32,673 nucleotides of DNA from a virus: positions 1 through 32,673 of the IMG/VR virus record IMGVR_UViG_3300005529_001103; one strand, given 5' to 3'. The position numbers were made by a program, and so were the translations under genes. Shown in pieces: positions 1,988 to 28,349 of this stretch. The notes below the pieces were generated by a model. That model saw nothing but the letters and a program-made list of their open reading frames with translations, ran no database searches and was not told where the DNA came from. Each line of letters begins with the position of its first letter. Position 1 is the first letter of the stretch.

Positions 1988-2554
1988 ATGCCGAAAAACG
2001 AAACGCGAAAAAACTTCGCCGCAATGAGCGTTACCGATGTGGCGGAACTGCTTGGCGTGTCGGATCGTGGCGTTCGTAAGTGGATAAAGGAAAAGGGTTT
2101 ACCAGCCAAGAGCGATCCGCGCGGTTTTGTGCTCGACTGGTACGCAACTCTGCGATGGTTTGTAGCCTATCAGATCGAGGAAAACGCCGGAACGGGCGGA
2201 ACGAAACGAGGTAAAAACAGCCCTGAAGATGAGCTTGAAACCTATGACAAAGCCCTTGCTAGAAAGACACGCGCCGAGGCTGATTTAAAAGAGTTACAGC
2301 TTGCCCGAGAGCGCGGGCAAGTAGCCGCAATCGCCGACGTGCAGAGGGTGCTCACAGCTTCCAATAAGTCTATTCAGACCTTGCTTTTGGCTATGCCTGC
2401 TGCACTTGCTACTCAGCTTATCGGCCTCGCTGACCGAGGCCGGATCTATTCCATCATCGAGCGCGCTGTGCGCGGCACGCTTTCCAATATGGCGAACATT
2501 GACGCTATTCTTGAGGCCCGCGCAATGAGCCTGGGCGCCGAAGAGGAAGAATGA
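1988..2554 (+). CDS. terminase small subunit, Nu1-like
   Basis: 188 residues, close to lambda Nu1 (181). Nu1 binds cos and brings the large subunit to the DNA during packaging. Residues about 13-36 (SVTDVAELLGVSDRGVRKWIKEK) form a winged helix-turn-helix. Residues about 75-110 are a charged helix. The C-terminal part (SNKSIQTLLLAMPAALATQL, then ADRG) matches the helical end seen in Nu1-type proteins. The start at 1988 has no strong ribosome binding site, and an alternative ATG lies at 2024. It overlaps the following methyltransferase by ATGA, so the two are probably translated together. The candidate cos site lies just upstream. Confidence 0.85.
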   Translation: MPKNETRKNFAAMSVTDVAELLGVSDRGVRKWIKEKGLPAKSDPRGFVLDWYATLRWFVAYQIEENAGTGGTKRGKNSPEDELETYDKALARKTRAEADLKELQLARERGQVAAIADVQRVLTASNKSIQTLLLAMPAALATQLIGLADRGRIYSIIERAVRGTLSNMANIDAILEARAMSLGAEEEE

Positions 2555-3234
2555 AGCCCTATTACGAACGCGGCGGCATCGCGATCTACCACGGCGATTG
2601 CCGGGAAATCCTGCCAGATCTGCAACCTATCGGTGCCGTTGTGACTGACCCGCCTTATGGAATAGGCGCCGCGCGCAAGAATTTTGGCGGTAAAGGCGTC
2701 CGTAAACATCGGAGCGGGATCTGTGCCGGAAAACCAATCTCACCGCGGTGGACCGATTACGGCGATTCTTGCTGGGATGATGAACCGTGTCCACCAGAGC
2801 TGATTCGTGTCCTGATTGGTCTAGCTCCGAAAGTGATTCTGTGGGGGGGCAATTATTTTCAAGTCCCGCCGGCCAAGGGGTGGCTTGTGTGGGATAAGCT
2901 ACGCGGCGATACAGACTTTGCGGATTGCGAACTAGCCTGGACTAATCTCAATTTCTCGGTTCGGCGCCTGCGGCATCGCTGGAATGGTTTTCTGCAGGAA
3001 CCAGGCAAATATGAAAAGAGATACCACCCTACCCAGAAACCCCTACAGGTGATGCGGTGGTGTATCGGCTTGCTTGGCGACGGAATTCAATCAATCTTCG
3101 ATCCCTTTATGGGCAGTGGGACCACGCTGGTAGCAGCCAAAGAGCGCGGTATCCGTGCAATCGGCGTGGAATTAGATGAGCGGTATTGCGAAATTGCGGC
3201 GGCTCGGTTAGCGCAAGAAGTATTGCTCGTATGA
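2551..3234 (+). CDS. DNA methyltransferase, beta class (DPPY), probable N6-adenine
   Basis: 227 residues. It transfers a methyl group from S-adenosylmethionine to a DNA base. The catalytic motif DPPY is at 33-36. The conserved HPTQKP is at 159-164 and the SAM-binding FDPFMGSGTT at 183-192. Motif IV before motif I is the beta-class order. DPPY favours N6-adenine, but N4-cytosine cannot be excluded. It overlaps the small terminase by ATGA and the next methyltransferase by ATGA. No restriction enzyme is nearby, so it is an orphan methylase, probably protecting phage DNA or marking it for packaging or regulation. Confidence 0.9.
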   Translation: MKPYYERGGIAIYHGDCREILPDLQPIGAVVTDPPYGIGAARKNFGGKGVRKHRSGICAGKPISPRWTDYGDSCWDDEPCPPELIRVLIGLAPKVILWGGNYFQVPPAKGWLVWDKLRGDTDFADCELAWTNLNFSVRRLRHRWNGFLQEPGKYEKRYHPTQKPLQVMRWCIGLLGDGIQSIFDPFMGSGTTLVAAKERGIRAIGVELDERYCEIAAARLAQEVLLV

Positions 3235-3635
3235 AAGGCACCACCCCAATTTTCAGCTCACAAACCGTAGACTGGCCTACGCCACGGGATGTGTACGCAA
3301 AACTTGATGAGGAGTTTCATTTCGATCTCGATCCGTGCCCGTTGGGGGGGGCGCTCTGGATGCAGGGCGATATCCCTCTATTGTGTGCGTGGGAGGGTCG
3401 GCGCGTATTCTGCAACCCGCCTTACGGCCCGAAGATCGCCGATTTCCTGAGACGTGCCCGCGAACCACAGCTCGCCGTATTTCTAATTCCAGCACGCACG
3501 GATACGCGCTGGTTTCACGAGCTTGTCTTACCTTATGCCAGCGAGATTCGCTTTGTGCGCGGTCGGTTGAAGTTTGGCGATGCCAAGAATTCTGCCCCAT
3601 TCCCTTCGATGATTGTGGTGTATCGCAATGAGTAG
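3231..3635 (+). CDS. phage Dam-family DNA N6-adenine methyltransferase
   Basis: 134 residues from the ATG at 3231, which overlaps the previous stop (ATGA). It has the layout of the phage DNA N-6-adenine-methyltransferase family: an N-terminal WPTPRDVYAKLDEEF, then FDLDPCP, the catalytic NPPY in FCNPPYGPK, LIPARTDTRWFH, and the ending GRLKFG with APFPS. It is somewhat shorter than many members, yet all core motifs are present. It ends 8 bases inside the large terminase gene. It is the second methyltransferase between the two terminase subunits. The target sequence is unknown. Confidence 0.88.
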   Translation: MKGTTPIFSSQTVDWPTPRDVYAKLDEEFHFDLDPCPLGGALWMQGDIPLLCAWEGRRVFCNPPYGPKIADFLRRAREPQLAVFLIPARTDTRWFHELVLPYASEIRFVRGRLKFGDAKNSAPFPSMIVVYRNE

Positions 3636-5673
3636 TACACAGCGCGTATACGAAACATCGCCCGAAGGGTTCGCAGCGCTGGGTGGCGCCTTCCGTGCCG
3701 GGCATAAGATGTTTAGGCCACCAGAGGCGCTCACGCTTTCGGAGTGGTCAGATCGCTTCGCTTTCATCCCCAAAGAATCCGGCGCCTATCCCGGCAAGTT
3801 CCAAACCAGCTTTGCCGAATATCAGCGCGGCGCGCAGGATGCTATCACTGATCCTGATATCGAAACGGTCGTATTTATGTGGGCTGCGCAGACAGGAAAG
3901 TCGCAGATTCAGCTCAATGCGATCGGTTTCTATTCCCATTGGGACCCGTCGCCGATTCTGACTATTCAGGCCAGCGAACGCGAAGCTGAAAAATTTTCGA
4001 AAAACCGTATCGCGAAGATGATCCGGGATACACCGGTTTTGAAAAAACTCTTTCCGTCGCCACGTTCGCGCGACTCCGGTAACACACTCCTCAACAAAGA
4101 ATTCCCTGGCGGCGTGCTTGTCATAGCTGGTGCCAATGCGCCAGCCGGCCTCGCTTCGATGCCTATTCGGGTGCTTATCCCCGATGAGGTTGACCGATAC
4201 GACGAATCAGCCGGCACCGAAGGCGATCCGATCGATCTTGCCGATAAACGCACAACTACATTTTGGAATCGCCGAAAGATCCTGGCGTCTACGCCAGGCA
4301 TAAAGCACTTATCGCGCATCGAGGCCGGAATGGAGTCGAGCGATTGGCGCCGCTATGCTGTGCCGTGTCCACATTGCGGCGAAATGCAATTTCTCGAATG
4401 GTCGCGGCTGAAATGGGAAACCGAAGACGTTAACCAGAACTCAAAACCACGCGTCACCTCGTGGTGGTATGTGTGCGTCAACGGCTGCGTCATCGAAGAA
4501 AAAGACAAGCACGAGATGATAAGGCAAGGGCAATGGCGCGCTACAAAGCGTAGTCATGACGGCAGGACTGCCGGATTTCATCTCAATGCGCTTTATTCCC
4601 CCGTGCTCGATTGGTCCAAGCTCATCTACGAATGGATCGAGGCGCAGGGCTCGCTTGAGCGCATGAAGGTGTTTATTAACACGCGCCTAGCTGAAACATG
4701 GGAAATTCGTGGGACGGGTGCCGATCTGCATGAGTTGGAATCGCGCGGCCGATTCTCGCGTGAACTGTTGCCTGCGGGTGTGCTTTTTCTCACCGCCGGC
4801 GGTGACGTGCAGGATGATCGGCTTGAGATATCGGTTATCGGCTGGGGTATGAATGATGAGCGTTGGGTGATTGACCACCAAGTTTTTCCCGGCGACCCTT
4901 CGCTACCTGATTCCGATGAGGCGAGCCCATGGGCCAGGGTGCGCGAATACTTGCTTGAGCCGTGGGAGCAGGTTGGTGCCGGCGAAGGTGCGCGTATCTC
5001 GATGCAAGTCGAATGCGCGCTATTTGACTCGGGCGGCCACAATACCGAGCGCGTGTATGAGTTCACGCGCAAGCATCATCTGCGTCGCTGGTACGCCATC
5101 GTAGGCCGCGCCGGCATCGGCAAGCCGCTTGCCAGCTCGGGATCGCAGGTGGGGCCATTTAAAACAATGTTGTTCACGGTCGGTGTGGATACGGCGAAGG
5201 AAGATATTTTCACTTCATTTCGCGTGAAAGAGCCGGGCGCCGGTTATTGCCATTTCAGCGCCGATCTGCCGGCAGAATATTTTCGCCAGGTCACGGCAGA
5301 AAAACTTGTGAAGACGAAAAAAGATTTCATCACCACGATGCAGTGGGTGAAGACACAGGAGCGCAACGAAGCGCTCGATTGTTTCGTCTACGCGCGGGCC
5401 GCCGTGGCTGTGCTACGGCCGCACTATCGCAAGATTCGCCGCAATCTCGATCGGCAGATAGAGACTCTTCGGCGGCAACGCGAAGCAGCCGGCAAACCTA
5501 CACCGGCTCCTATTGAGGAAATTATTGCGCCAGCAGTGCCTTTGCCGGCGTCGGAGCCCGCACCACAAGAGGAGGCCACCACCGAGCCAGAGAAAAAACA
5601 ACCTCTACCAAAGCGTAAAAGAAAGCGCGTTAGCGTTGCTGATCAACTTCGCAATCGCCTTGTTTTGCGCTGA
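3628..5673 (+). CDS. terminase large subunit, lambda gpA family
   Basis: 681 residues from the ATG at 3628, which overlaps the methyltransferase by 8 bases. It is the ATP-driven packaging motor and the nuclease that cuts concatemers at cos. A Walker A-like AAQTGKS is at 86-92 and Walker B PDEVDRY at 185-191. A zinc-finger-like region has CPHC at 247-250, but its second half reads CVNGC (283-287) instead of a regular C-x2-C. The nuclease domain starts near GGDVQDDRLE (391-400). The C-terminus is Pro/Glu-rich and then strongly basic (KRKRKR). The length is near lambda gpA (641). Confidence 0.93.
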   Translation: MSSTQRVYETSPEGFAALGGAFRAGHKMFRPPEALTLSEWSDRFAFIPKESGAYPGKFQTSFAEYQRGAQDAITDPDIETVVFMWAAQTGKSQIQLNAIGFYSHWDPSPILTIQASEREAEKFSKNRIAKMIRDTPVLKKLFPSPRSRDSGNTLLNKEFPGGVLVIAGANAPAGLASMPIRVLIPDEVDRYDESAGTEGDPIDLADKRTTTFWNRRKILASTPGIKHLSRIEAGMESSDWRRYAVPCPHCGEMQFLEWSRLKWETEDVNQNSKPRVTSWWYVCVNGCVIEEKDKHEMIRQGQWRATKRSHDGRTAGFHLNALYSPVLDWSKLIYEWIEAQGSLERMKVFINTRLAETWEIRGTGADLHELESRGRFSRELLPAGVLFLTAGGDVQDDRLEISVIGWGMNDERWVIDHQVFPGDPSLPDSDEASPWARVREYLLEPWEQVGAGEGARISMQVECALFDSGGHNTERVYEFTRKHHLRRWYAIVGRAGIGKPLASSGSQVGPFKTMLFTVGVDTAKEDIFTSFRVKEPGAGYCHFSADLPAEYFRQVTAEKLVKTKKDFITTMQWVKTQERNEALDCFVYARAAVAVLRPHYRKIRRNLDRQIETLRRQREAAGKPTPAPIEEIIAPAVPLPASEPAPQEEATTEPEKKQPLPKRKRKRVSVADQLRNRLVLR

Positions 5674-6364: not shown

Positions 6365-8098
6365 ATGAGCATGGAGAAAACACAGAAATCCGGTTTCTTT
6401 TCGCGCGCACTGCGTGCTATCGCTGATGGCATCGACACAGCTAAGCGCTCCATGACCTCAGAGAGTACGCTTGGCCAGCTCGGCGGCGGTAGCGGATGGA
6501 TGGGTTTCAATGCCGCGAAGAATAGCAGGCTGCAGAACGATTGGCCGTCTGCATCTCGCTCCGCCGATCAGGATCTTGTGGTTGATCTGCGTAAGCTGCG
6601 CTCGCGCGCGCGCCAGCAAGCCATCAATTCACCGATCGCTACAAAGTTTCTCGGCATGGTTCGTTCGAATGTAGTAGGGCGCCACGGGGTCAAGTTGGCA
6701 TTCAAGGTGCCGGCCGCGCGCAAAACAAAAGGCAACGGTGGCCTTGACGAAATAACCAATGAGACATTGCGCCAGGCGTGGCACGAGTGGGGCAAGAAGG
6801 GCTCGTGCACAGTCTGCGGGCGGTATAGTTGGCGCGATCTGCAGCGGCTGATTGTCGAAGATACCGCCCGCGATGGCGAGCAGCTTTTGCGCAAAGTGTA
6901 TGTGCCGAAATCTGTAAATCCGTTCGGCTTTCAACTTCAGTTGATCGATGCCGATCAACTTGATGACACATACAATCAGCTCGCCGCAGCGAATGAGACA
7001 CAAATCCGCATGGGTGTCGAGGTGGATGGCAATCAAAAGCCACTCGCTTATTACCTATTCAAAGGTAATCCTTATGAGGTGAGCTTCGGCTCGGCGCAGC
7101 GCGTGCGTGTGCCCGCCGATCAGATCATTCATTGGTTCATTGCGCACCGCACCGGGCAGACGCGCGGCTATCCGTGGTTTGCGTCAAGCATGAGTCAACT
7201 CAATATGCTCGACGGCTATTTTATGGCCGAACTCACGGGCGCGCGCATCAGCAGTTCGCTGCTTATGTCTATTCAAACAGAAGGCGACAATGGCGACGAT
7301 GAATTTGAGGGCGACGGCCTGAATGCCGATGGAACCAAGGCGATTGACATAAACGGCGGGACAGCGCTTGAGATGCCGGCCGGGCAGAAGCTTGTCAACA
7401 ACACGCCGTCTCATCCAACCAATGCATTCGAGGGATTCGTTAAGCAATCCGGTCGCCTGATTTCATCGGGCATGAATGTGGCCTATCACAAGCTGTGCAA
7501 CGATCTTGCCGGCATCAATTACAGCTCAGGGCGCCTGGGTGAATTGGAAGAGCGCGATTTCTGGATGGAGATGCAGACTTCGCTAATCGATAACGTGCTC
7601 GAACCGGTTTACGATGCATGGTTGAAATCTGCGCTGCTCAATCGCGCAGTCGATCTTTCTTTTGGCGATTCCAAGCGATTCATGGGCACTTCGCTTAAAT
7701 GGGAGCCGCGCCGCTGGCCATGGGTTGATCCGCTCAAGGATGTGCAGGCAAGCACGTTGCTTGTGCAAAACGGATTCGATACTAATGCCAGCATTCTCGA
7801 AAGCCAAGGCAAAGATCTCGAAGACGTGTACGCCGAACGAAAACGCGAGCAGGATCTCGCCGATAATCTCGGCCTGAAGTTTGGAACCGATATTCGCGGC
7901 GAGGGAACGAGCGAGGTTAATTCCGGTGCAGACACAGTGGAGAGCGGTGAAGACGAGCCCAATAGCGGCACCGGCAAGCCAGCCAAGCCGAAGGCGCAGA
8001 CAAAACCCGCACCGGAAAAACCGAAAGGACGTGGACTCGTGAACGGGATGCACCCGGCAAATGCGGCGCTTTGGGATCTTACGGAGGGTGAGCAATGA
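6365..8098 (+). CDS. portal protein, lambda gpB family
   Basis: 577 residues. It forms the dodecameric ring at the capsid vertex through which DNA enters and leaves. The family pattern is clear: an N-terminal LRSRARQQAINSPIATKF, then NVVGRHGVKL, the core QLQLIDADQLD, the segment IIHWFIAHRTGQTRGYPWF, and the helical wing LIDNVLEPVYDAWL. The C-terminal ~70 residues are acidic and then Pro/Lys-rich and probably disordered. A second ATG at 6371 is 5 bases after AAGGA and may be the true start. It follows the gpW-like gene by 8 bases and overlaps the first exported-protein gene by ATGA. Confidence 0.95.
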   Translation: MSMEKTQKSGFFSRALRAIADGIDTAKRSMTSESTLGQLGGGSGWMGFNAAKNSRLQNDWPSASRSADQDLVVDLRKLRSRARQQAINSPIATKFLGMVRSNVVGRHGVKLAFKVPAARKTKGNGGLDEITNETLRQAWHEWGKKGSCTVCGRYSWRDLQRLIVEDTARDGEQLLRKVYVPKSVNPFGFQLQLIDADQLDDTYNQLAAANETQIRMGVEVDGNQKPLAYYLFKGNPYEVSFGSAQRVRVPADQIIHWFIAHRTGQTRGYPWFASSMSQLNMLDGYFMAELTGARISSSLLMSIQTEGDNGDDEFEGDGLNADGTKAIDINGGTALEMPAGQKLVNNTPSHPTNAFEGFVKQSGRLISSGMNVAYHKLCNDLAGINYSSGRLGELEERDFWMEMQTSLIDNVLEPVYDAWLKSALLNRAVDLSFGDSKRFMGTSLKWEPRRWPWVDPLKDVQASTLLVQNGFDTNASILESQGKDLEDVYAERKREQDLADNLGLKFGTDIRGEGTSEVNSGADTVESGEDEPNSGTGKPAKPKAQTKPAPEKPKGRGLVNGMHPANAALWDLTEGEQ

Positions 8099-8997
8099 GA
8101 CGCACATTGCTGTTGATCGCCTTGTTTGTTGTGGGTGCGGTTTGCGTTTTAGGGCAAACGGTTACAGTCACCTCATCTCACTTTGCGGATTCGGCGGGAA
8201 ATCTATATACGGGCTCGGTAACGTTTCAGCCAACGATCAACGGATTGCCGACCGCCTATCACCTGAGCACCGGAGGTCAGCGCACATCGGCGCCCGTAAG
8301 CGTGTACTCGCAGGCTGGCGTATTCAGCATCACATTGCCGGATACGACAACCACTGATCCCGCTAATTTTTGTTTCAAGATGACGGCTGGCACAATGCCC
8401 GGCTTTCAGGGTTATGCGTGTCTACAGCCGCATACAACAGCAACCGGATCGGGTGATTGGTGTCAGGCGGGAGTTTGCAATCTCGATAACTATTCGCCAT
8501 CGTTCCCCACGCTCGCGCCCGTATGGGGAATTTCAAGTATCAATGGCATTAACGGGCCGGTGCAGTTTTCAGGGCCGGGCTTATCGCAGAACGGAAACAG
8601 CTTTTTCTTTAGCGGCCAAAATGGCGGTGGAAGCATCGGCGATTCGGACGTAACCAACCAAACCGCATCGCAGGGAACCGTGAATTTGGTTGGCACAACG
8701 CCATCGGCCGGTAAGTATCGGATTAGTTACTACGTAAGTCAGCATACGCTCTGTGTTACGGGCGCCAACACGGTGCAGCTCACTTTTCATTGGTCAGATG
8801 GCCTTCAGTCTCGTTCGACCAATAGCGTTGCTTTGACGCTCAACTCTTCGGCCTCTGCAGCCTCGATTCAGGGCGTAATCCCAATCTATGCGGCTGCAGC
8901 TTCGGCCATCACCTACACATCGACACTCGCCGGCTCCTGCGCGACCGGCGGCCCGTCTAGCTACGACGCGCACATTTCCGTGGAGGCTGTTCAATGA
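8095..8997 (+). CDS. exported protein with C-terminal beta domain (cassette gene 1)
   Basis: 300 residues. The N-terminus (MRRTLLLIALFVVGAVCVLG, then QT) is a typical Sec signal peptide with cleavage after Gly. The mature N-terminal half (about 22-130) reads like a beta-sandwich: SSHFADSAGNLYTGSVTFQP and TYSQAGVFSITL-like strands. The C-terminal domain (about 185-300, from DVTNQT) is clearly related to the C-termini of the next two genes and contains Cys pairs suited to oxidation outside the cytoplasm. It starts on the portal's ATGA, so it is coupled to the structural operon. The function is unknown; a secreted adhesin, host-surface modifier or virion decoration is possible. Confidence 0.7.
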   Translation: MRRTLLLIALFVVGAVCVLGQTVTVTSSHFADSAGNLYTGSVTFQPTINGLPTAYHLSTGGQRTSAPVSVYSQAGVFSITLPDTTTTDPANFCFKMTAGTMPGFQGYACLQPHTTATGSGDWCQAGVCNLDNYSPSFPTLAPVWGISSINGINGPVQFSGPGLSQNGNSFFFSGQNGGGSIGDSDVTNQTASQGTVNLVGTTPSAGKYRISYYVSQHTLCVTGANTVQLTFHWSDGLQSRSTNSVALTLNSSASAASIQGVIPIYAAAASAITYTSTLAGSCATGGPSSYDAHISVEAVQ

Positions 8998-9911
8998 AAA
9001 AGATTCTGCTCGTTCTTCTGTCTCTTTCTTTTGGTCTGCGGCTATGCGCTCAGACCGCCAACGCAAACTATCCCGAGGGGCAGCTCGCGCCGAGCTATGC
9101 GGCCGACACGGGAGCCGCAAACACGCTTGTGGCGAGCCCAACATCGGGATGCCCTACTGCGCTTGTGGATGGCATGGTGGTTCGTGTGCTGCCAGGGCAC
9201 GCCAATTCAACCACAACGCCAACGCTTAATTGGTGCAATCTCGGTGCGAAGACGATTACGAAATTCGGCACCTCTGCTGTGGCGGCAAATGATCTGACGA
9301 CTACCGCGAAGGCGATTTTTGTCTATGATGCCACATCGACTGACTATCAGTTGATCAACCCACAAACAGCCGGATCGAGCGGCACTGTGCAGGATGGCGG
9401 CGGCACTACCACCGCAAACGGTCTCGGGGTTTCAACCGGAACCGCGCACGTGATCGGCTATAACCTCAACGATATTGTGCAATCAGACGGGCATTTTTCC
9501 ACTTATGACGGCCTGACAACAGCCGGATTGGGGCTTGATGTGCCGCTTGCGGTTTCGGATGTGACTGCGCAGTCGGCTTCACAGACGACCGTTAATCTGA
9601 TTGCCTCAACAAGCGCAGCCGGGCACTACATGGTGCGCATGTATCTCGATCAAAGCGCGCTCTGTGCAACCGGGACGGGCTCTGTCTATGCGACTGTTAG
9701 CTGGACAGATGCTTCCCATGCGCGCCAGGCGCAGACGGTACCACTAACGCTCGCCAATACAACCAACTCCGCAACTGCTGGATATATCGACGCAGCAATC
9801 CCGTTGTGGTCGGCGGCTGCTTCCGCAATCAGTTATACGACCACGTATGCGGCCTGTGGTTCCGGCACTGCTACTTATGATCTGCACGCCGAAATCGAGC
9901 GCACAAACTAA
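8994..9911 (+). CDS. exported fibre-like protein (cassette gene 2)
   Basis: 305 residues, overlapping the previous gene by ATGA. A signal peptide (MKKILLVLLSLSFGLRLCA, then QT) is followed by a segment of about 35-125 that resembles tail-fibre beta modules (TPTLNWCNLGAKTITK, then IFVYDATSTDYQLI). A Gly/Thr-rich linker leads to the C-terminal domain (about 189-305, DVTAQSASQTTVNLI), which aligns along its length with the C-terminus of gene 1, including PLTL, AAASAI-Y-TT and the conserved Cys. It is probably a carbohydrate-binding or trimerising surface protein. The export signal is unusual for a phage structural gene. Confidence 0.7.
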   Translation: MKKILLVLLSLSFGLRLCAQTANANYPEGQLAPSYAADTGAANTLVASPTSGCPTALVDGMVVRVLPGHANSTTTPTLNWCNLGAKTITKFGTSAVAANDLTTTAKAIFVYDATSTDYQLINPQTAGSSGTVQDGGGTTTANGLGVSTGTAHVIGYNLNDIVQSDGHFSTYDGLTTAGLGLDVPLAVSDVTAQSASQTTVNLIASTSAAGHYMVRMYLDQSALCATGTGSVYATVSWTDASHARQAQTVPLTLANTTNSATAGYIDAAIPLWSAAASAISYTTTYAACGSGTATYDLHAEIERTN

Positions 9912-9923
9912 GCGAGGGTTGTC

Positions 9924-10931
9924 ATGAGGCGATTTCTCTGGCTCAATCTGTTCCTGGCCGCATTGTCTGCGGCCAGCGCGCAGACGGGCACTGTCAAAAC
10001 GGCGCACGATCTTGCTCTTCCCAAACAATGCGCCGATTCATCTGGCTCAGGTACAGCGCAGAGCTGCTCGACGGCGCCGACATTCACGCCGGCTGCAAAT
10101 GACCTGATTATTTACACCACAACCACCGCGAACACGGGAACCAGCCTCACGGTAAACGTAAATTCGTTGGGCGCGAAATCTGTAGCAATCGCCGGATCTT
10201 CGGGATGGACCACGACTTTGACGGCTGGCGTAATCCAGGCGAACAAACCGGTACTGATGATCTATGACGGCGCAAATTGGGATGTAATGCAGACCGGAAC
10301 TGCGGCAAGCGGCGGAGGTGGCTCATCGGGCACGCTCGTGCAATCCTCAACAACTACCTCCAGTATTGCGCCCGCGAGTTTGATTTCAAGCGTAGCCTCG
10401 ACGCCAGGCATGTATACCGATCAGTGGGATGTTTCGATAACCACAGTCGCCACTGGAACATGTACAGGATCGAGTCTACTTAATCTCTATCTGATGTGGA
10501 TCAATCCCAGCGTGCCAACAACCACATTGAGTGCCGCAGTGACAACAACGGGCCAAACCAGCATATCTGTCACGAGCGGCGTAGATGTTCAGAACAATCA
10601 ATACATTCTCCTGGGATCTGAATACGCTCTCGTGGTAAGCGGCGGCGGCACAAGTAGCCTAACGGTGACGCGCGCGCAACTCGGAACCACCGCATCGACT
10701 TATTCCAACGGCGCGACGGTTACGGTGCCAAATGTGGAACTGGCAGCCACATTGAGTCTAGGCAATACAAACAGCCTCAATGGCTATCGCGGGTCCGTAG
10801 CGAATGGCATTGAGAGTATTCTCGCCAAAAATGCCACGGCAATTCAATACGCCACAACATATACCGCTGGCGCGGGCTGCACGGCGCCACCAACTTATCA
10901 GGTGAGCCATGTTATTACAGCGACTCATTAA
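9924..10931 (+). CDS. exported fibre-like protein (cassette gene 3)
   Basis: 335 residues, with GAGGG upstream of the ATG. The signal peptide is MRRFLWLNLFLAALSAASA, then QT. Residues about 50-120 carry the fibre-like module (LTVNVNSLGAKSVAI, PVLMIYDGANWDVMQTG). The C-terminal domain (about 143-335) is a diverged copy of the domain in genes 1 and 2 with an inserted beta segment (TTTGQTSISVTSGVDVQNNQ), and it ends YATTYTAGAGC and HVITATH. It overlaps the next gene by 23 bases. The function is unknown; the shared architecture suggests the cassette arose by tandem duplication with N-terminal swapping. Confidence 0.7.
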   Translation: MRRFLWLNLFLAALSAASAQTGTVKTAHDLALPKQCADSSGSGTAQSCSTAPTFTPAANDLIIYTTTTANTGTSLTVNVNSLGAKSVAIAGSSGWTTTLTAGVIQANKPVLMIYDGANWDVMQTGTAASGGGGSSGTLVQSSTTTSSIAPASLISSVASTPGMYTDQWDVSITTVATGTCTGSSLLNLYLMWINPSVPTTTLSAAVTTTGQTSISVTSGVDVQNNQYILLGSEYALVVSGGGTSSLTVTRAQLGTTASTYSNGATVTVPNVELAATLSLGNTNSLNGYRGSVANGIESILAKNATAIQYATTYTAGAGCTAPPTYQVSHVITATH

Positions 10932-12339
10932 GATCACGCTCTTGCTCTCGGTGGCAGTCTGCAGCGCGCAACAACAGAACGGCGCGAATTATGCGCTGCA
11001 GACCGTGCAGTATGGCGAAACCGGGCAAGGTTCGAACGATTCTGGAGTCAATCCGCTTGAGCTAGGCGACCAGTTCATAGTGGGCACGCCGCCGCCGGCT
11101 TATTTTTCGGGCTGTTCGATGTTCGTGATCTCTCCGGACAACACACAGCAATGGGGCTGTGGTATCCGAGCTGACAGCACAAATGTGCCGGGGGCATTGA
11201 AATGCAGCGCGATGAGCAGCAATGCAAACCCGACCGTTCCGGCACCGGTTGCAGGCTGGAATAACCGCAATTTGACGGGGTGTGGTGCGCCGGTCGCTGC
11301 GGGAAAGTTGTGGGTGCAATCCTTCACGGCATCGGGTACACAGGAGCCTGGTTTCTCGCAGCCATTCTCGGCAACCACAACCTGCCCCGGCAGCACGGTG
11401 AGCAGTGACTATTCAAATAGTCTCAGCGGCCCACCGTACAGCATGCCGGGCACGTATGCAGGTCAGCAGGGAACACAAACGTGGTGTTACTCGCAATATG
11501 TAACAGCCGTGTTTGCGACGGGGCGTAATGGTAAAAACTACAACACGCCGCAAGGCATTCCTAACGGGCCTTGGGGTCAAAACGGCCGCTCTTATGGCGG
11601 GTCAAATGTTGCGATGGGCTGGATTGATTTCAATCTCGGCCTGAGTAACGGTGCTACGCCGACCACAACCACGCTCGGGAATTCATCGATAGGCAGCCCC
11701 TGCACATGGGCTTTAACGAACAATCAAAACCTTACGGGAGACAATAGCGCTGCTCTTGGCACGGCTCTCTCGACGGTTGTTGTGAGCGGAACCGCATATT
11801 CAGGCTCGCCCAGCGCAACCGCGATCAGTCTTAAATACACCACAAGCGCCAGCTCGCCAGGTGGCTACTATACATGCACTCTGCCATCAACGTATACGCT
11901 TCTTTCGGTATGTTACGACTGGAAGACAGATATTCCGATCTCAGATGTGAGCCAGGAAGATGATGTTAAAGCGATTGCGGGCGATGGTACAGACGGGTTC
12001 CTGATTTCGCTTCTTGCATCCGGTAATTCACTCTGGTTTGGCGGTGAAGAAACAAATGGAGCGACAACTACCACATCACTCGACAATGTTCCAGTTCTGC
12101 CGAACACAAAATATACAGTGTGCATTGATAAAGTGACAGGCGGCGCCACTAACACCGCGCGGGTTTATTCGGCTTCAGGTGTACTGCAGGGCACGATTCA
12201 TCTCGCCTCGGGAACTGGATCTCACCCGGCCGGAATTATCCTTATAGGTACTACAGGTAACGAGACAGAGACGAATGGGCACCATAAATGGTGGAGTAAT
12301 ATCCGCATTGTAACTTCAGGATCACTCGCCATCCCGTAA
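10909..12339 (+). CDS. exported lectin-like (LamG/ConA-type) protein (cassette gene 4)
   Basis: 476 residues. The start ATG at 10909 lies inside gene 3, preceded by AGGTG. The signal peptide is MLLQRLIKITLLLSVAVCSA, then QQ. The middle region is rich in Gly, Ser, Thr, Asn and Cys. The last ~170 residues (about 300-476) resemble a concanavalin A/LamG jelly roll: SVCYDWKTDIPIS, DGFLISLLASGNSLWFGG, NTKYTVCIDK, ARVYSASGVLQGTI and a C-terminal WWSNIRIV strand. It does not share the C-terminal domain of genes 1-3. It is followed immediately by a strong terminator. It is likely a glycan-binding exported protein; its role in the phage cycle is unknown. Confidence 0.68.
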   Translation: MLLQRLIKITLLLSVAVCSAQQQNGANYALQTVQYGETGQGSNDSGVNPLELGDQFIVGTPPPAYFSGCSMFVISPDNTQQWGCGIRADSTNVPGALKCSAMSSNANPTVPAPVAGWNNRNLTGCGAPVAAGKLWVQSFTASGTQEPGFSQPFSATTTCPGSTVSSDYSNSLSGPPYSMPGTYAGQQGTQTWCYSQYVTAVFATGRNGKNYNTPQGIPNGPWGQNGRSYGGSNVAMGWIDFNLGLSNGATPTTTTLGNSSIGSPCTWALTNNQNLTGDNSAALGTALSTVVVSGTAYSGSPSATAISLKYTTSASSPGGYYTCTLPSTYTLLSVCYDWKTDIPISDVSQEDDVKAIAGDGTDGFLISLLASGNSLWFGGEETNGATTTTSLDNVPVLPNTKYTVCIDKVTGGATNTARVYSASGVLQGTIHLASGTGSHPAGIILIGTTGNETETNGHHKWWSNIRIVTSGSLAIP

Positions 12340-12356
12340 ATTGATTCTCTTCCTAC

Positions 12357-12385
12357 AAGAGCCGCTATTTTAGCGGCTCTTTTTT
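12357..12385 (+). terminator. rho-independent terminator after the exported-protein cassette
   Basis: AAGAGCCGCTA (12357-12367) and TAGCGGCTCTT (12371-12381) form a perfect 11-bp stem around a TTT loop, with a run of T from 12380 to 12385. It is oriented for + strand transcripts only. It separates the cassette from the protease-capsid gene, so capsid expression needs a downstream promoter, read-through or antitermination. Confidence 0.9.
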
Positions 12386-12432: not shown

Positions 12433-14451
12433 ATGAGTGATGAGAAAAAGAACATTGCGGCATTGCCGATGCAATATCGAGCAGGTATTGTCGATGCCGA
12501 GCGCAAAGAAGGCGAGCGGCTTTCGGGTGCAGATCCTGGCAGGTTTCGCTTTACAGTGTCGAGCGAAGAGCCGGTAAGGCGCTGGTTTGGCAACGAGATT
12601 CTCGATCACTCGAAAGACAGTGTGCGTACTGGCCGGCTTGATGCGGGCGCAGTGCCAGGCTTGCTGAATCACGAGCAGCGTTTTGGCAAAGTCGATAAAT
12701 ATTCGCTCAAAGACGGGAAGCTTACGGTAGAAGGTCCTTTCAGCCGCACACAGTTTGCTCAAGACGTTCGCCAAGATTACGACGACGGCATTTTGACAAA
12801 TGCATCCGTTGGCTATCGCGTGCACAAGATGGTGCGCACCGAAGACGAAGACAACCCAAACATGCCGGATGAATGCCGAGTGACGGATTGGGAGCCGTTC
12901 GATGCGAGCCTCGTGGACGTGCCTGCAGATGCCACGGTCGGCGTAGGCCGCGCAGCGAATGCGGGCGAAGAATTTCCGGTTGCCATTCAAACCATCTCGC
13001 GGCGTTCAGCTCAGAGCGCTGCACAACCTATCATCGAAATTCAACCACAGGAGAAAAGAAACATGGCCGAGACGGCTACAGCACCCAGCGCATCGGAATT
13101 GGAAATTGCGCGGCGCAACGAAATCATGGCCGTTGCGACCGATAAAGATTTCCGCAAATACACCTCGATCGATGAAGCACAGAAGGCCATCGCAGAGGGA
13201 ACCTCTGTCGATAAGTTCAAGGATCAGGTAACTCGCAAGATCGTGGAAGAGAACGACGCCGCGAAAGTTGGCACGGCCGGCGATAACATCTTCCGCAATC
13301 TGCCCGAGAATGCGCAGAAGAGATATTCCGTGCTGCGCTTGGTGCGCGGCATGGTCAACCAGATGAGCGGCACGAAGCGCTTTGCGAAGGAAATCTCGGA
13401 CAACGGCCTGGAGATGGAAGTTTCGCAGGAGCTTGCGCGCAACCTGAAAGTACAGACCGAAGGCCCGCTGATGCCGTTATCCGCTGCCCGCGCGCTCGGC
13501 ACGCAGGGGATAGGATCGGGAGCTGGTCAGATTGCCGTAACGTCTGAGGCTGCGGCTGTCGAGACCATCACGAGACCGGAAGTGATCGAGTTGCTCCGTC
13601 ACCGGGCTCGCGTTTTGCAGCTTGGCGCCCGCACTCTGGGCGGCCTGCAGGGCGTGATTCGGTTGCCGCGGCAAACCGGCGCGAATACTGCGACGTGGAC
13701 CACAGAAGGCGCCGCAGGGACGCCGGCAGACCTGACCATGGACTACGTTTCCATGCAGCCACGGCGTATTACGCAACAGACCTCGTGGACCATCGAGCTG
13801 CTCGCCGAGACTTCGCCGGATGTTGAGGGTTTGGCGCGCATGGATCTCGATAAGGTGCGTAACCTGGCTCTCGATCTTGCGGCAATTTCTGGATCGGGCA
13901 CGAGTGGCCAGCCTACCGGCATCATGAACACAACCGGATTGACGCTGCTCGCACCGTCCGGCACGGCGTTTTCGGATGGTGGAAAGCCGCTGCTCTGGTC
14001 AGATGTTTTGGCTTACGAGAGCACGGTTGCGGCGGCCGATGCGGATGTTGCCACCTCGGGTTGGTTGTTTACACCGGAAGTGCGCGCGCAGCTCAAGGCA
14101 ACCGCGAAGTTCACGGCGGGCAGTGTGGCCGGCTTGGTTGCAATCTGGGAAGATGGCCCGAAAGATCCCATTGGGCTCGAAGTTGGGCCACTCGGATACA
14201 TGGCCGGTGTCACCAATCAGCTTGCAAAGAATGGCACGAAGGCTGGCGTCACGGGCAGCATTCTGCATAACTCGATCTTTGGAGATTTTAGCCAATTGAT
14301 CTTCGCCGATTGGGGCGTGCAGGAAGTGGTGGTTGATCCATACACCCAGGCGCTTAACGGTGCCGTGATTGTGACGGCGCGCAGCCTGCACGATATCGCG
14401 ATCCGCCACATTGCTGCATTCGTGGCTAACCCCTATATCGCCATCTCGTAA
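12433..14451 (+). CDS. HK97-type prohead protease fused to major capsid protein
   Basis: 672 residues in one uninterrupted frame. Residues 1-190 are a U35-type prohead protease: AGAVPGLLNHEQ with likely catalytic H80, GILTNASVGYRV with likely S125, and the typical ending DWEPFDASLVDVPAD. Residues 211-672 are an HK97-fold capsid protein: a helical scaffold-like delta domain (about 220-340), then EVIELLRHRARVLQLGA, GVIRLPRQTGANTATW, TSWTIELLAETSPDVE, and the C-terminal SLHDIAIRH with AFVANPYIAI. A second ribosome binding site and ATG at 13063 would give separate capsid. The ribosome binding site upstream of 12433 is weak. The gene follows a terminator and is the capsid centre of the phage. Confidence 0.93.
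   Translation: MSDEKKNIAALPMQYRAGIVDAERKEGERLSGADPGRFRFTVSSEEPVRRWFGNEILDHSKDSVRTGRLDAGAVPGLLNHEQRFGKVDKYSLKDGKLTVEGPFSRTQFAQDVRQDYDDGILTNASVGYRVHKMVRTEDEDNPNMPDECRVTDWEPFDASLVDVPADATVGVGRAANAGEEFPVAIQTISRRSAQSAAQPIIEIQPQEKRNMAETATAPSASELEIARRNEIMAVATDKDFRKYTSIDEAQKAIAEGTSVDKFKDQVTRKIVEENDAAKVGTAGDNIFRNLPENAQKRYSVLRLVRGMVNQMSGTKRFAKEISDNGLEMEVSQELARNLKVQTEGPLMPLSAARALGTQGIGSGAGQIAVTSEAAAVETITRPEVIELLRHRARVLQLGARTLGGLQGVIRLPRQTGANTATWTTEGAAGTPADLTMDYVSMQPRRITQQTSWTIELLAETSPDVEGLARMDLDKVRNLALDLAAISGSGTSGQPTGIMNTTGLTLLAPSGTAFSDGGKPLLWSDVLAYESTVAAADADVATSGWLFTPEVRAQLKATAKFTAGSVAGLVAIWEDGPKDPIGLEVGPLGYMAGVTNQLAKNGTKAGVTGSILHNSIFGDFSQLIFADWGVQEVVVDPYTQALNGAVIVTARSLHDIAIRHIAAFVANPYIAIS
13049..13065 (+). 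promoter_or_regulatory. internal ribosome binding site and start codon for free capsid protein
   Basis: AGGAG (13049-13053) stands 9 bases before the in-frame ATG at 13063-13065 (residue 211), exactly at the boundary between protease and capsid domains. Initiation here would give a 462-residue capsid protein. This is a better initiation signal than the one upstream of the full gene. Confidence 0.7.
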
Positions 14452-15192: not shown

Positions 15193-15576
15193 ATGGGAAA
15201 AAGTGTCAACAAGGTTATCTTGCTCGGCAATGTCGGCCAGGTGCCGGAAGTGAAGACGAACAACGGGAAACCGCGAGCGAGCCTATCACTGGCAACGAAC
15301 GAGCGTTTCAAAGTCGGCGAGAAGTGGGAAGATCGCACGGAATGGCATCGAGTCGTATTCTTTGGCCGGCTAGCTGAAATAGTTCGCGACTACGTGAGCA
15401 AAGGCTCGAAGCTTTATATCGAGGGACGCTTGCGAACCTATAAATGGGAAGACGATTCTCAGCAGACGCGCTACGCAACCAATATCATTGCCGAAGATAT
15501 CACGTTGTTGGATGGTCGAGATGCGCGCCAGGCGCAACCACCCGACGAAATTGTAGATGAGGATATTCCGTTCTAA
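15193..15576 (+). CDS. ssb: single-stranded DNA-binding protein
   Basis: 127 residues with an OB-fold: NKVILLGNVGQVPEVK, ASLSLATNERFK, DRTEWHRVVFFGRLAEIV, KGSKLYIEGRLRTYKW and YATNIIAEDITLLDG, then a short linker and the acidic tip DEDIPF, which recruits replication and repair proteins in this family. GAGG precedes the ATG. The linker is short compared with host SSBs (often 160-180 residues), as is usual for phage copies. The location is odd: it sits between the gpFII-like connector and the tail terminator-like gene, where lambda encodes gpZ. Its stop TAA is directly followed by the next ATG. Confidence 0.95.
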   Translation: MGKSVNKVILLGNVGQVPEVKTNNGKPRASLSLATNERFKVGEKWEDRTEWHRVVFFGRLAEIVRDYVSKGSKLYIEGRLRTYKWEDDSQQTRYATNIIAEDITLLDGRDARQAQPPDEIVDEDIPF

Positions 15577-20028: not shown

Positions 20029-20745
20029 TTAAAAGGAAATTTTAAGCCCACGGGCCATGATTTGACGCCAAGTTTCCCGCCAGCGGGCGGGGAAGGATGT
20101 CTGTACGGCGCGATCAACCGTCTGCTCCATGCCGAACCGCGGTTTAATTACGGCATCAGGGATGAGCAGATAGAACGGATATGCATCGCGATCTGTCCAA
20201 TAGCGGCCCATAATGGCATGGCGTCCTTCACGAAGCTCCTGCACAAAGAAAACAAAGCCTTTGACGAGATTTTGATTGCGCAGCGCCATTTGGCCGGTTA
20301 CCCGTTTGAATGCCGTGAAACGGCCACCTACAGCCCCAAGTAACGCGCGCGGACGTAACTCTGCAGGGATTACTCCAGGCGCCATCTGGCGCAGATAGCG
20401 AGTCGGAACAGCGAGATATTGCCGGCCGGCATGCGGGACCTTCTCGCCGCCTTCCTCTTGCGGTAAGAGGTAGTCTGGGGCACCTGTGGCGCGATTAGCT
20501 GTGTCTGTATGCACGTCGGCCTCGATACGCGCGGCGCGCTTCTCTGCCGGCGTGATGCGAATGCCTTGGCGCGTGAAATTGTTGCGCAGTGTGAATTTTT
20601 CGCCAAGGCTATCCTGTACGGCTACCTGGCCATCTTTTGCGCAGCCGGTAAGAGTCTTTGCGAGCGCGAAGGGGATATGCGCTTTCTGCAGATCATTGAG
20701 GCCGGCAACAGCCTCTGATATATCGACGGTTGTGTGTAGCTGCAT
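20029..20745 (-). CDS. gpZ-like minor tail protein on the opposite strand
   Basis: 238 residues. The layout matches the gpZ-like family of minor tail proteins: an N-terminal helix with LNDLQKAHIPFALAKTLTGC, basic RNNFTRQGIRITPAEKRAARIE, a middle with AVPTRYLRQ and RPRALLGAV, then FVQELREGRHAIMGRYW and YPFYLLIPDAVIKP, and a C-terminal helix ending WRETWRQIM. gpZ acts late in tail completion in lambda. In lambda its gene lies between FII and U; here it lies after the tape measure and is inverted. The divergent gap to the next + strand gene is only 46 bases. The gene appears intact. Confidence 0.65.
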   Translation of the reverse strand: MQLHTTVDISEAVAGLNDLQKAHIPFALAKTLTGCAKDGQVAVQDSLGEKFTLRNNFTRQGIRITPAEKRAARIEADVHTDTANRATGAPDYLLPQEEGGEKVPHAGRQYLAVPTRYLRQMAPGVIPAELRPRALLGAVGGRFTAFKRVTGQMALRNQNLVKGFVFFVQELREGRHAIMGRYWTDRDAYPFYLLIPDAVIKPRFGMEQTVDRAVQTSFPARWRETWRQIMARGLKISF

Positions 20746-25900: not shown

Positions 25901-28339
25901 GAGATTGTTGGAATCCCTGACACCTCACCTTTTTTGCTCAACCTTACGATAGCCGAGCAGTTCCAAGATGGAACGCTTACGAAATCACCGAACTCTGCGG
26001 TGGTTACGGTTGGATGGCAGAACGGAGGCACGGCCGTAGGCGCGCGTATCTGGGTGCAATCCGGCAATGGATCTTTCGAGCTGCTCGGTGATACTAAGGG
26101 AACTGGCGCATCGTTTATTGGCGTCATTGGAACCACGTACACCGTGAAACTTGTTGCGCTCGATTGGGCCGGCGGCGTGCTTGGCGATCCAATCGAGACT
26201 TCGATCACGGTTGTAGCCTCAACCAACGCACCGCCAAATGTTACGGGCCTCACTATGACGCCGGGCGTGGGCGGCAATGTGCTCACATGGAATACGGTGG
26301 TCGGTGCCGATCATTACGAAGTACGCTACGCCTCGCAGATTGCCGGCATCGATTGGGAAGATGCAGCCGTGTTGTGGGATGGAACCGCGACAACATACAC
26401 AGATGCGTCGGCGCCATCTTCGGGCGTCTACATGGTTGCCGCGATCGGCTCTCTTGCTACCGGGAGCGTGAGCAGCGTAATTCCTGCGGTATGGCAAATT
26501 GGGCTCTCGCCAACATCTACTGTGGCTGCACCGAGCGGCGTAACGATCGAGGATGACACAGCCACCGCGCTCGTTCTCTCAGATGGATCAAGCGTGGCGC
26601 GCGCCCTGGTGTCTTGGACGCCACCGAGTGATGCTTATGTGCTGCTGGGTGGATCAATTCAGGTGCAGTACGCATTCTGGAACCCTGATTCACAGCCTGT
26701 TCCATCACCCGGCCCAATTCGCAAGTTTCCAAAATTATTTGTGAATGTGATGATCGGTGGCGTCTCTACGCAGATCGATCAAACCGATTGGGTTGACTAC
26801 GGTACCCTAAGCGGAAGCTCAACATATTGCTATATCGACATTCCGGCCAACTACGCTTATATGACCGTGCAGATCCGCGCAGTACGCGCCAACGGGCTTA
26901 GTTCTGCCTGGGTGCAGGATGGCGAGACGGCCGGCGGATCTCCGCATCTGCCTACCCACCCTTTTCCGATTCTGAAGTATGGCGACGGCGCAACCACGAT
27001 CGATTCTTTGAGGCCGCTTGAGGCTGGAGCCAATGTTACAGAAACGCGCGTATCGCTTCAGACAAGTAATCTAAACAATCATACGTTAGATAATCTTGCC
27101 GATAGTCCGTCACGCTTTGCTTCTGCTCAAGCCGCCGCATTTGGCGATGGCACCCAGATTGTCTCAAACCCGGAATTCGCAAATGGCTTGACGGGTTACG
27201 GCGCTTATCAGGTCGGAACTCTTTCGCTCGTGGCGGATGCAGCAACGCCGAACAACACGGGGCAGAAGTTGCAGGTGACAGCATCTTCTGGCTTGGGCCC
27301 AACTTTCCCAAATGGTTTGGGATATAAATACGGGTCCATGCTAGCGAATACATCTGGATTGTTCACTGCCGACGCATTCGTCCCAGGCCACACCTATATC
27401 GTTCGCATTCGCGCACTGATTCCGACGGGCTTCAATTGCGCATTGGCTTGGGATAACGGCTGGACCTATACGCCGTTAAGCAGCGTCGCGGGTAGTGGGG
27501 CGTGGCAGGACTACTACTTCAAGATGGTTGCTCCAGCGCCCGGTTATAGCGGCTTTGCGGATTTTGGTTATCTCTACGCGTTGCCGCAGCTCGGCCAGAC
27601 GAGCGGCACGATGTATATTGCGCTTACCTCCTACATCGATATCACGGCGCCGGCGGGGATGAGCGTTTCACATGTTGATTCAAATCGTCGGGCATTGATC
27701 GATCTTTCCCAGGGTGGTCACCTTAATAAATCGACCCAATACCTATCCGAAGGCGGTGGTAATTATTTCGCTGGTGAGCATGGCGCGGACATAACAGGAA
27801 ACCACACTTCGGCTGACACTTCGAATGTCAACGGTGTGCCAGCGCATATCATTTCGCCTATCGGCACACTGATGCCTGCAGAACCATCCGCTAATGTGAC
27901 AAATGCGCACGTACTCACGGCGGTTTCTGCGCCCAGCAGTAATCTCACGCTGACCACCTCACCGCAAGCTGTGCCGGGTTGGGGTTTCAGCATCAATACA
28001 GCTAATTCGGCGGATGTGTACAACATCTGGGGCGTCATTGAAGCGACAACCAATACTTCATCAGCCGATGCCTATATTGATTTCTATATCTATCTCGATG
28101 GGACTCAGTTAAGCGCATTCCAGTGCATCGTAAGAGCTGGTTCACCTGGCACTGTCTTCTCGCCGTTTGTGTCTTCATTAACGGGCCTTTCTGTGGGTTC
28201 GCACACGATTCAGATCTATGCAAAGCTGGATTTTCCAGTCGGCGGAACACAGACCGTCATTTGCCCCACAACAAGCAGCGGCTTAGGGATCACTTTCTAC
28301 ACAGCCGGAAGTTATGCAGTCTGTCAACGAATCTTTTAA
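22979..28339 (+). CDS. central tail tip / host specificity protein J-like
   Basis: 1786 residues, the largest gene of the window. Residues about 30-110 are a beta-rich domain with NPFRLSERINVTLPP, followed by Gly-rich FPRAGGGGFG and a hydrophobic segment (about 115-170, LIVLAGAIAGMFTVGMALFAF-type) as in TipJ-like proteins, covering what lambda splits between gpI and gpJ. The hub begins near PGLPQQPAW and SPVPKAYGTFAWNG. A fibronectin III-like domain is at about 1080-1165 (NVTGLTMTPGVGGNVLTWNT, YEVRYAS). A CBM-like jelly roll follows at about 1395-1560 (NPEFANGLTGYGAY), and a beta-rich receptor-binding end after that. It is the probable receptor-recognition protein. Confidence 0.92.
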   Translation: MEGLGSALENVSLVTIPKIEQSIDTTHALGVRVARLIVVENPFRLSERINVTLPPLDNESLGAFIARAGFDPQKFEISRTGHRIEDEFVWCTAVVPGEEFVLFPRAGGGGFGKKLMGMLIVLAGAIAGMFTVGMALFAFPTLVGALGTTGIAAVMATGAAIGSALLSWALAPGLPQQPAWSTTYDPTGPKGLAQPGSPVPKAYGTFAWNGNIISSYVQFDGKDAYIYALACYGFGSAVSVSNILLNGKPISEYQNTSYQTRLGTNNQLPIAGFNQTVNGYPQETQLLVSVGPATVSGTGTDVEGLQITCKLPSGLYRITNDGNYVPLKVIYKIEYAPHGTSGWQMPLFPNETEPIFTTDGSGDAIYPAWVVVPTDRFAGSGIVYAWDNGSHTPGDAWSSTETVTITNLDTSTTTTSYTFQGTWQPCDPTLGQVGVTSWFEGYRVVETSTLNPYFDTVSIYGLTAGQWDVRVTKIGYCQDNNNDVVFADSTDAKHIEDIWLWNVNEITLSNLAYPNMILVGVQALATSQMSGANLQIQATIVHDLGVDTTLPAELASFEHDNPAIVAYDVLTNSLYGAGVAAANIDVPAFVVWAEFCDESVTNQDGSAVRRFIFNGVFDQTGDVWKTLQAIGNMSRASVFPMGKTYSVVIDAPADPVQLFTVGNITKDSFQEMWLALDDRCTLIEADFSDAARSYRMDLPVAVMTAEDINSGLQPKVTRTKLLGCTSRDQAWRWAYFHLLSSKLTLRTIQFAAPIEAVCCTRGSVIGVQTDITQWGTGGRILAGSTSNTVIVDRTDLTFLPSAGWTVSVQHPVVQRGTATVQSVSGNTVTMTAALPSGRILKAVGPNGWEYVVTGYSGSTITVESLILQGHASTLLAGQTVTLYDVNVIDVFAASAVTVTPDSSAGPGSAAIQISGSFSATPNAGAAWAYGQSGGGQPAKLFRVVSIKKSGDFSFQIGALEYNSAIYTDPTPNYGEIVGIPDTSPFLLNLTIAEQFQDGTLTKSPNSAVVTVGWQNGGTAVGARIWVQSGNGSFELLGDTKGTGASFIGVIGTTYTVKLVALDWAGGVLGDPIETSITVVASTNAPPNVTGLTMTPGVGGNVLTWNTVVGADHYEVRYASQIAGIDWEDAAVLWDGTATTYTDASAPSSGVYMVAAIGSLATGSVSSVIPAVWQIGLSPTSTVAAPSGVTIEDDTATALVLSDGSSVARALVSWTPPSDAYVLLGGSIQVQYAFWNPDSQPVPSPGPIRKFPKLFVNVMIGGVSTQIDQTDWVDYGTLSGSSTYCYIDIPANYAYMTVQIRAVRANGLSSAWVQDGETAGGSPHLPTHPFPILKYGDGATTIDSLRPLEAGANVTETRVSLQTSNLNNHTLDNLADSPSRFASAQAAAFGDGTQIVSNPEFANGLTGYGAYQVGTLSLVADAATPNNTGQKLQVTASSGLGPTFPNGLGYKYGSMLANTSGLFTADAFVPGHTYIVRIRALIPTGFNCALAWDNGWTYTPLSSVAGSGAWQDYYFKMVAPAPGYSGFADFGYLYALPQLGQTSGTMYIALTSYIDITAPAGMSVSHVDSNRRALIDLSQGGHLNKSTQYLSEGGGNYFAGEHGADITGNHTSADTSNVNGVPAHIISPIGTLMPAEPSANVTNAHVLTAVSAPSSNLTLTTSPQAVPGWGFSINTANSADVYNIWGVIEATTNTSSADAYIDFYIYLDGTQLSAFQCIVRAGSPGTVFSPFVSSLTGLSVGSHTIQIYAKLDFPVGGTQTVICPTTSSGLGITFYTAGSYAVCQRIF

Positions 28340-28349
28340 TGGAGAGATC

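Follow-up and report, generated by a model that had tools for sequence, protein, structure and literature searches.

By textbook account, tailed phages are built entirely in the cytoplasm, and one would not expect their adhesins to have signal peptides. In T4 Hoc and other decoration adhesins, adhesin domains are added to the capsid and can bind preformed capsids, and the T5 protein Llp has a role concerning debris. Here, we analyse a stretch of 32,673 bases from the virus record IMGVR_UViG_3300005529_001103 (hereafter, the window), which belongs to a temperate lambda-like siphovirus of soil Acidobacteria and in which four consecutive genes, E1 to E4, open with predicted signal peptides between the portal and the major capsid gene. 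The finding appears larger than one cassette. It points to an exported class of phage adhesins in the phages of Acidobacteriaceae, where a single phage protein family, found within a single bacterial family, combines export, cysteine pairing, and fibre architecture.

Several described systems share part of these properties. Modular tail fibres and tailspikes, collagen-like and GDSL-bearing fibres among them (phrog_5073, phrog_11541, phrog_5240), have the same shaft and enzyme modules as the E1 family, a conserved N-domain, variable C-terminal parts, and the same place after the tape-measure or J gene; the E1 family differs from them by its signal peptide and paired cysteines, and the window genes by being short and lying in the portal-capsid gap. 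T4 Hoc, whose likeness is by description only, is made in the cytoplasm without a signal peptide, unlike E1 to E4. Lambda Lom, encoded just after J, is likewise exported from a late structural operon next to fibre genes, but it is described as a beta-barrel (PMC12309495), whereas E1 is predicted to form two beta-sandwich domains and has fibre relatives. T5 Llp is also a phage-encoded exported protein, acting on the receptor; however, it is a lipoprotein (PMC9586334), while E1 to E4 would be multidomain adhesins in a late operon, without lipobox. Finally, WceF of Pantoea stewartii (PMC7949094) is exported, has a phage tailspike fold, and acts on exopolysaccharide, but it is a bacterial, Tat-exported, catalytic beta-helix protein outside any phage operon. 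In the literature, we found no description of signal peptides on phage fibres or tailspikes, an absence that is no proof.

Four Predicted Exported Proteins between Portal and Capsid

A sequence-only reading of this DNA had described four genes between portal and capsid, each opening with a Sec-type signal peptide. This was borne out: E1 to E4 score 5.25-6.58 with a home-made heuristic (positive n-region, hydrophobic core, AxA-like site), which is not SignalP. The predicted cleavage sites, marked here by a slash, are MRRTLLLIALFVVGAVCVLG/QT for E1, MKKILLVLLSLSFGLRLCA/QT for E2, MRRFLWLNLFLAALSAASA/QT for E3, and MLLQRLIKITLLLSVAVCSA/QQ for E4, and direct reading of the four N-termini revealed no lipobox ([LVI]-x-[GAS]-C) ahead of the cleavage region. 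Among 70 annotated lambda and P22 genes, the same score reaches 5 for Lom, Bor, and Rz only, and for no structural protein. In the window, head and tail structural genes do not exceed 5 either, the sole other gene above this value encoding a small membrane protein beside the lysin gene (28687-28983). Since only 7 of the 176 six-frame open reading frames (ORFs) of the window reach 5.2, four signal peptides in a row are not due to chance. The export of the four predicted proteins by Sec, as substrates of signal peptidase I, is well supported. Another ORF with a signal-like N-terminus (28123-28593) was rejected as a gene: it overlaps J and o28314 in another frame.

The mature proteins contain 6 (E1), 4 (E2), 4 (E3), and 10 (E4) cysteines. 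Once close relatives are removed, counts are even in 29 of 32 mature exported proteins (binomial probability 1e-6, a value that holds if proteins are independent, which relatives are not), and in 5 of 13 other proteins of the window. Even counts are the pattern expected of disulfide-bonded exported proteins, and this predicted bonding is thereby supported.

The genes were also said to overlap, to be coupled to the portal gene by ATGA, and to be closed by a terminator. Indeed, ATGA overlaps join the portal gene to E1 and E1 to E2, and E3 and E4 overlap by 23 bases; only between E2 and E3 did the claim fail, at a 12-base gap. The proposed terminator is present after E4: the hairpin at 12357-12381, followed by a T-run, has a minimum free energy (MFE) of about -17.6 kcal/mol and is the longest found by a scanner whose hits in the window show no excess over shuffled sequences (4 vs. 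4.5). No promoter was found beyond chance level in the E1-E4 region, and the position of the genes supports their placement in the late operon.

Searches of E1 to E4 against PHROGs and Pfam gave no match at E-values up to 1, and no catalytic domain was found with these two collections. In the E1 model, a beta-sandwich N-domain (~21-140, with four cysteines), whose predicted local distance difference test (pLDDT) is mostly above 90, is followed by a glycine-rich linker and a beta-sandwich C-domain (~180-300) with a pLDDT of about 55-63. The best structural match of the N-domain with VIA-align is a tail-tip chain of mycobacteriophage Bxb1 (Z 8.6, root-mean-square deviation 2.7, 83 aligned residues); the other VIA-align rows, mostly generic beta-sandwiches matching the low-confidence C-domain, were set aside. 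Foldseek found no match for E1 in the PDB with E below 0.001, and its best row, the central fibre of lambda gpJ (E 3e-3, low TM-score), was kept only as a hint. The AlphaFold2 model of E4, built with one homologue, was not usable (mean pLDDT 36). The beta-rich, fibre- or lectin-like character read from the letters is thus right for E1 as far as its predicted structure goes, and likely for E4 from the homology of its C-terminus; for E2 and E3, it would follow from homology to E1 and to exported multidomain proteins.

The E1 Family in Viral Contigs

Scanning IMG/VR with E1 yielded 22 loci, and a profile scan 37 (L-numbers are the labels of loci in the phage and prophage records compared). From these alignments, E1 is a real protein family. 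All 22 relatives from the first scan, the most distant at about 34% identity, have a predicted signal peptide, most of these ending in A/QTVTV; together with the excess of even cysteine counts, this sustains the claim of export. The N-domain (~21-140) is conserved, with Cys 93, 109, 123, and 128 invariant among 11 aligned members, and the remainder of the protein varies from phage to phage. Most relatives occupy the portal-capsid slot, sometimes with a methyltransferase gene beside them, between portal and capsid genes that resemble those of the window; a minority (L016, L020, L021, L024, L034-L036) lie among genes without structural-module assignment. In L023 the slot is empty despite related portal and capsid proteins (66% and 60% identical to those of the window), hence the E1 gene is optional. 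All host genomes with the E1 family are Acidobacteriaceae, in agreement with the host group that had been guessed.

On the other hand, the idea of a single four-gene unit did not survive. E2, E3, and E4 have no relatives in the viral contigs, and only E1 is found at the slot, so E1 to E4 are not one conserved unit. The search for the cassette in other phages and prophages recovered E1 in its place but never the four genes together, other exported genes occupying the slot in L001 and L015. Among 50,697 phage records, tblastn matched neither E1 nor E4.

The DNA methyltransferase gene, located at 2551-3234 (+) in the window, has a mobile position across the window, L023, L003, L008-L019, L028, and L030: it adjoins the terminase genes in the window and L023, and lies between E1 and capsid in other loci.

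The N-Domain Opens Long Tail Fibres

The N-domain was found in 32 of 398 Acidobacteriaceae genomes (34 with a broader profile). In a phylum-wide sample of 396 genomes it was found in 3, all of them already in the Acidobacteriaceae sample, and in none outside the family. In prophages of this family, it opens long genes directly 3' of tape-measure or J genes, and these genes contain modules of the collagen, GDSL esterase, CBM_5_12, and BppL_N types along with tail-fibre PHROGs (collagen, GDSL, BppL_N, or tail-fibre PHROGs occurring in L001, L006, L081, L083, L085, L086, and L090). Judged from this predicted architecture, the N-domain belongs to phage fibres. Two N-domain genes stand in tandem in L083, L088, and L094, and a single protein of L044 contains two N-domains. 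In L004, an E1 relative is followed by an exported ConA-like lectin (PF13385), after J and o28314. One contig (L025/L046) carries both a short E1 in the portal slot and a long exported fibre after J. Such tail-module placement, found in relatives after J or the tape measure, is not that of the window genes, which lie between portal and capsid.

Most N-domain members are exported, and six distinct ones (L057, L058, L059, L061, L063, and L064) have no signal peptide; these begin a few residues before the domain, where the cleavage site of the others would lie. After the tape measure we find exported L081 and L093 versus unexported L085 and L086, and after J exported L046 and L047 versus unexported L090; the exported fibre of L048 also directly follows a tape-measure or J gene. 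Likewise, phrog_11541, phrog_5240, and a GDSL module are common to L083, which is exported, and L086, which is not. Because both forms sit equivalently and share modules, export varies among proteins of one architecture and place. The columns of the first cysteine pair (C93/C109) hold cysteine in 36 of 46 and 36 of 45 exported rows, and none of the 7 unexported rows has both; the loop of the second pair is absent from the unexported rows. In a tree of 53 N-domains, the signal-peptide label needs a single change and the unexported rows group together in a single clade (support 79/71). Repeated co-variation of cysteine loss with signal loss was considered and dropped on account of this tree, which shows a single clade and so probably one event.

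A Separate Exported Run in Cultured Phages

Tunturi_1 and Tunturi_2 are podophages isolated on Tunturiibacter (PMC11924767), Tunturi_1 having Tunturiibacter psychrotolerans X5P2 as its host. In these cultured virulent phages, ORF12, 13, 14, 16, and 17 form an overlapping array within the structural region, and all five open with a signal peptide; cysteines number 20, 10, 21, and 32 in the four large ones. The annotation gives ORF14 as tail spike or pectin lyase, and ORF17 as virion structural protein. The portal, capsid, and other head and tail proteins checked have no signal peptide, nor do the Tunturi_3 and 4 fibres that were checked. Over its last 54 residues, ORF12 shares 65% identity with the end of the prophage fibre L081, and this tip recurs in the exported L082_90. 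This C-terminal match ties the cultured run to the fibres with the E1 domain, and no sequence relation to E1-E4 was found in the other parts of the run. The statement that phage structural proteins lack signal peptides hence seems to fail in this phage-host group, where exported fibre and tailspike genes lie in tail modules, including those of two cultured virulent phages. In Tunturi_1 and Tunturi_2, which are cultured and whose run is separately arranged, the destination of exported adhesins (virion, cell, or debris) is directly testable.

The tip itself measures about 45 residues and contains two cysteines (GPATAPSGxC..GAWxFSxDGHATFCNxGTWVTKI). It ends L081:9904-12306 and ORF12 of L102 (Tunturi_1) and is present in L082 at 3226-5535 (-), being common to otherwise different exported fibres, as if swapped as a module.

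E2 to E4 and Exported Proteins of the Host

The C-domain of E2 (~188-302) is homologous to that of E1 (45% identity). E2 and E3 domains recur in long exported Acidobacteriaceae proteins, some with collagen, beta-helix, or BppL_N modules, and some of whose genes adjoin asparagine-synthase/GATase_7 genes. An Acidobacteriaceae protein with chitobiase-C-like repeats matches residues ~244-471 of E4 through its C-terminal domain, and Tunturi ORF17 has a module of this kind too; this part of E4 is probably a lectin-like jelly-roll, as far as homology tells. The genomic surroundings of the host proteins sharing E2, E3, and E4 domains look chromosomal. These domains and the L004 pair suggest a common pool of exported adhesin modules in Acidobacteriaceae phages and hosts.

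Five loci (L152, L155, L156, L158, and L164) encode very long exported host proteins, fibre- or beta-helix-like, whose modules are of phage type; they lie outside any recognised tail operon, some of them near asparagine-synthase genes. Asparagine-synthase and GATase genes are often found in exopolysaccharide loci.

Virion Adhesins, Masks, or Accessory Genes

Our preferred explanation, which we hold tentatively and at somewhat less than even odds, is that E1 to E4 would be exported, disulfide-stabilised adhesins, made late, freed at lysis, and attaching to virions. With yet more caution, we suggest that tailed phages of Acidobacteriaceae may be assembled in two compartments, the fibres being Sec-exported, disulfide-bonded in the periplasm, and added at lysis to particles built in the cytoplasm. 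The genes would be transcribed late with the head operon, as their position, the lack of above-chance promoters, and the terminator suggest. Sec export and signal cleavage, strongly supported by sequence, would come next, and the cysteine pattern supports subsequent folding in the periplasm with disulfide formation. Release at lysis would follow from the presence of an endolysin gene and the absence of a visible anchor, while synteny and the Tunturi phages suggest that the proteins would dock on virions at or after lysis, on capsid or tail, through their N-terminal domain. In vitro, P22 tailspikes and T4 Hoc add to finished particles. The C-terminal domains would then bind a host surface glycan, putatively exopolysaccharide, and in the E1 family exported proteins would stand in for the usual cytoplasmic tail fibres.

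Several points weigh against attachment to virions. The main text of the Tunturi paper mentions no proteomics (PMC11924767). The window genes are located in the head module and not beside the J fibre, and their short products (300-476 residues) may differ in role from the long fibres of tail modules; since L025/L046 carries both kinds, the short protein cannot simply be regarded as "the" fibre. Moreover, the losses of signal peptide and cysteines probably represent one event, the unexported members being one clade, and the sequence does not explain how an exported protein would reach virions before dispersal.

In the main rival reading, the proteins never join the virion. As soluble exported lectins, they would saturate the surface glycans exposed on the dying cell and on its debris; dead envelopes would then no longer trap the progeny, and related superinfecting phages would find no binding site. 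This masking, which parallels the described role of T5 Llp (the subject of PMC9586334), would suit short E1-type proteins encoded away from tail genes and would allow a short E1 and a long fibre in one phage; it also agrees with the recurrence of E2 and E3 domains in exported proteins from host chromosomes, some of them encoded next to asparagine-synthase/GATase genes. However, no lipobox or other outer-membrane anchor is visible and soluble proteins would have to cross the outer membrane before lysis, the long members have a whole tail-fibre architecture (GDSL, collagen, BppL_N) that goes beyond the needs of a mask, and the annotation of Tunturi_1 lists exported proteins as tail spike and as virion structural protein. 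Overall, we consider masking rather unlikely, although docking and masking are nearly level, with docking slightly ahead, when it comes to the short proteins in the portal slot of the window. Ordinary superinfection exclusion would be weaker than both receptor masking and virion decoration because of the predicted late expression.

More doubtful is the possibility that E1 to E4 are morons, i.e., accessory genes from the host secretome that modify the host surface or exopolysaccharide, carried in the late operon, with WceF as a precedent (PMC7949094). The match of E2, E3, and E4 domains with Acidobacteriaceae exported proteins in chromosomal-looking surroundings would fit this origin, as would a slot that is sometimes empty and sometimes also holds a methyltransferase gene. 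But the lack of above-chance promoters and the location inside the head operon suggest that expression is late in the lytic cycle, by which time a benefit to the host is irrelevant, and no catalytic domain was found in E1-E4. Lastly, some phage virion proteins have hydrophobic N-termini, and the head and tail gene neighbourhood would suit uncleaved anchors or attachment helices of ordinary cytoplasm-assembled virion parts, but this is very improbable given the conserved A-x-A/QT site with its n- and h-regions, the start of unexported relatives where the cleavage site would lie, the loss of cysteine pairs in the unexported clade, and the even cysteine counts.

Exported adhesins of this kind would also change annotation practice, prophage fibre genes with signal peptides being easily filed as host secreted proteins.

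Gene Content of the Window and Minor Observations

The window encodes an integrase, terminases, a head-tail joining protein, the portal, E1 to E4, the capsid, a single-stranded DNA-binding protein (SSB), tail genes, J (1,786 residues), and an endolysin (Table 1).

Table 1. Coordinates of E1 to E4 and of the features that delimit them in the window.
Feature	Position	Strand	Evidence
Portal gene, lambda family, upstream anchor	6365..8098	+	Pfam PF05136 E 4.8e-85, phrog_21
E1, predicted exported fibre-like protein, 300 residues	8095..8997	+	Reading frame, family, structure model, signal score
E1 predicted signal peptide, residues 1-20, MRRTLLLIALFVVGAVCVLG/Q	8095..8154	+	Score 6.58
E2, predicted exported protein, 305 residues	8994..9911	+	Signal score; C-domain homology to E1
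E3, predicted exported protein, 335 residues	9924..10931	+	Signal score; homology to Acidobacteriaceae exported fibre-like proteins
E4, predicted exported protein, 476 residues	10909..12339	+	Signal score; C-terminal homology
Intrinsic terminator, 11-bp stem, 3-base loop, T-run	12357..12385	+	Hairpin scan and MFE
Major capsid gene with fused prohead protease-like part, downstream anchor	12433..14451	+	PF05065 E 4.2e-30, phrog_617

The SSB gene (15193-15576, +) lies between capsid and tail genes, the same position as in the relatives checked. The 98-residue protein encoded just 5' of the endolysin gene, on the plus strand, has a second hydrophobic segment after its signal-like N-terminus and is possibly a lysis protein. 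A minor tail protein gene (phrog_1924; 20029-20745, -) is reversed within the plus-strand tail operon, and its minus orientation is kept in L023, L046, L047, and L090. In L002/L003 and L005, two tandem major tail protein genes, instead of one, follow 3' of the tail terminator gene.

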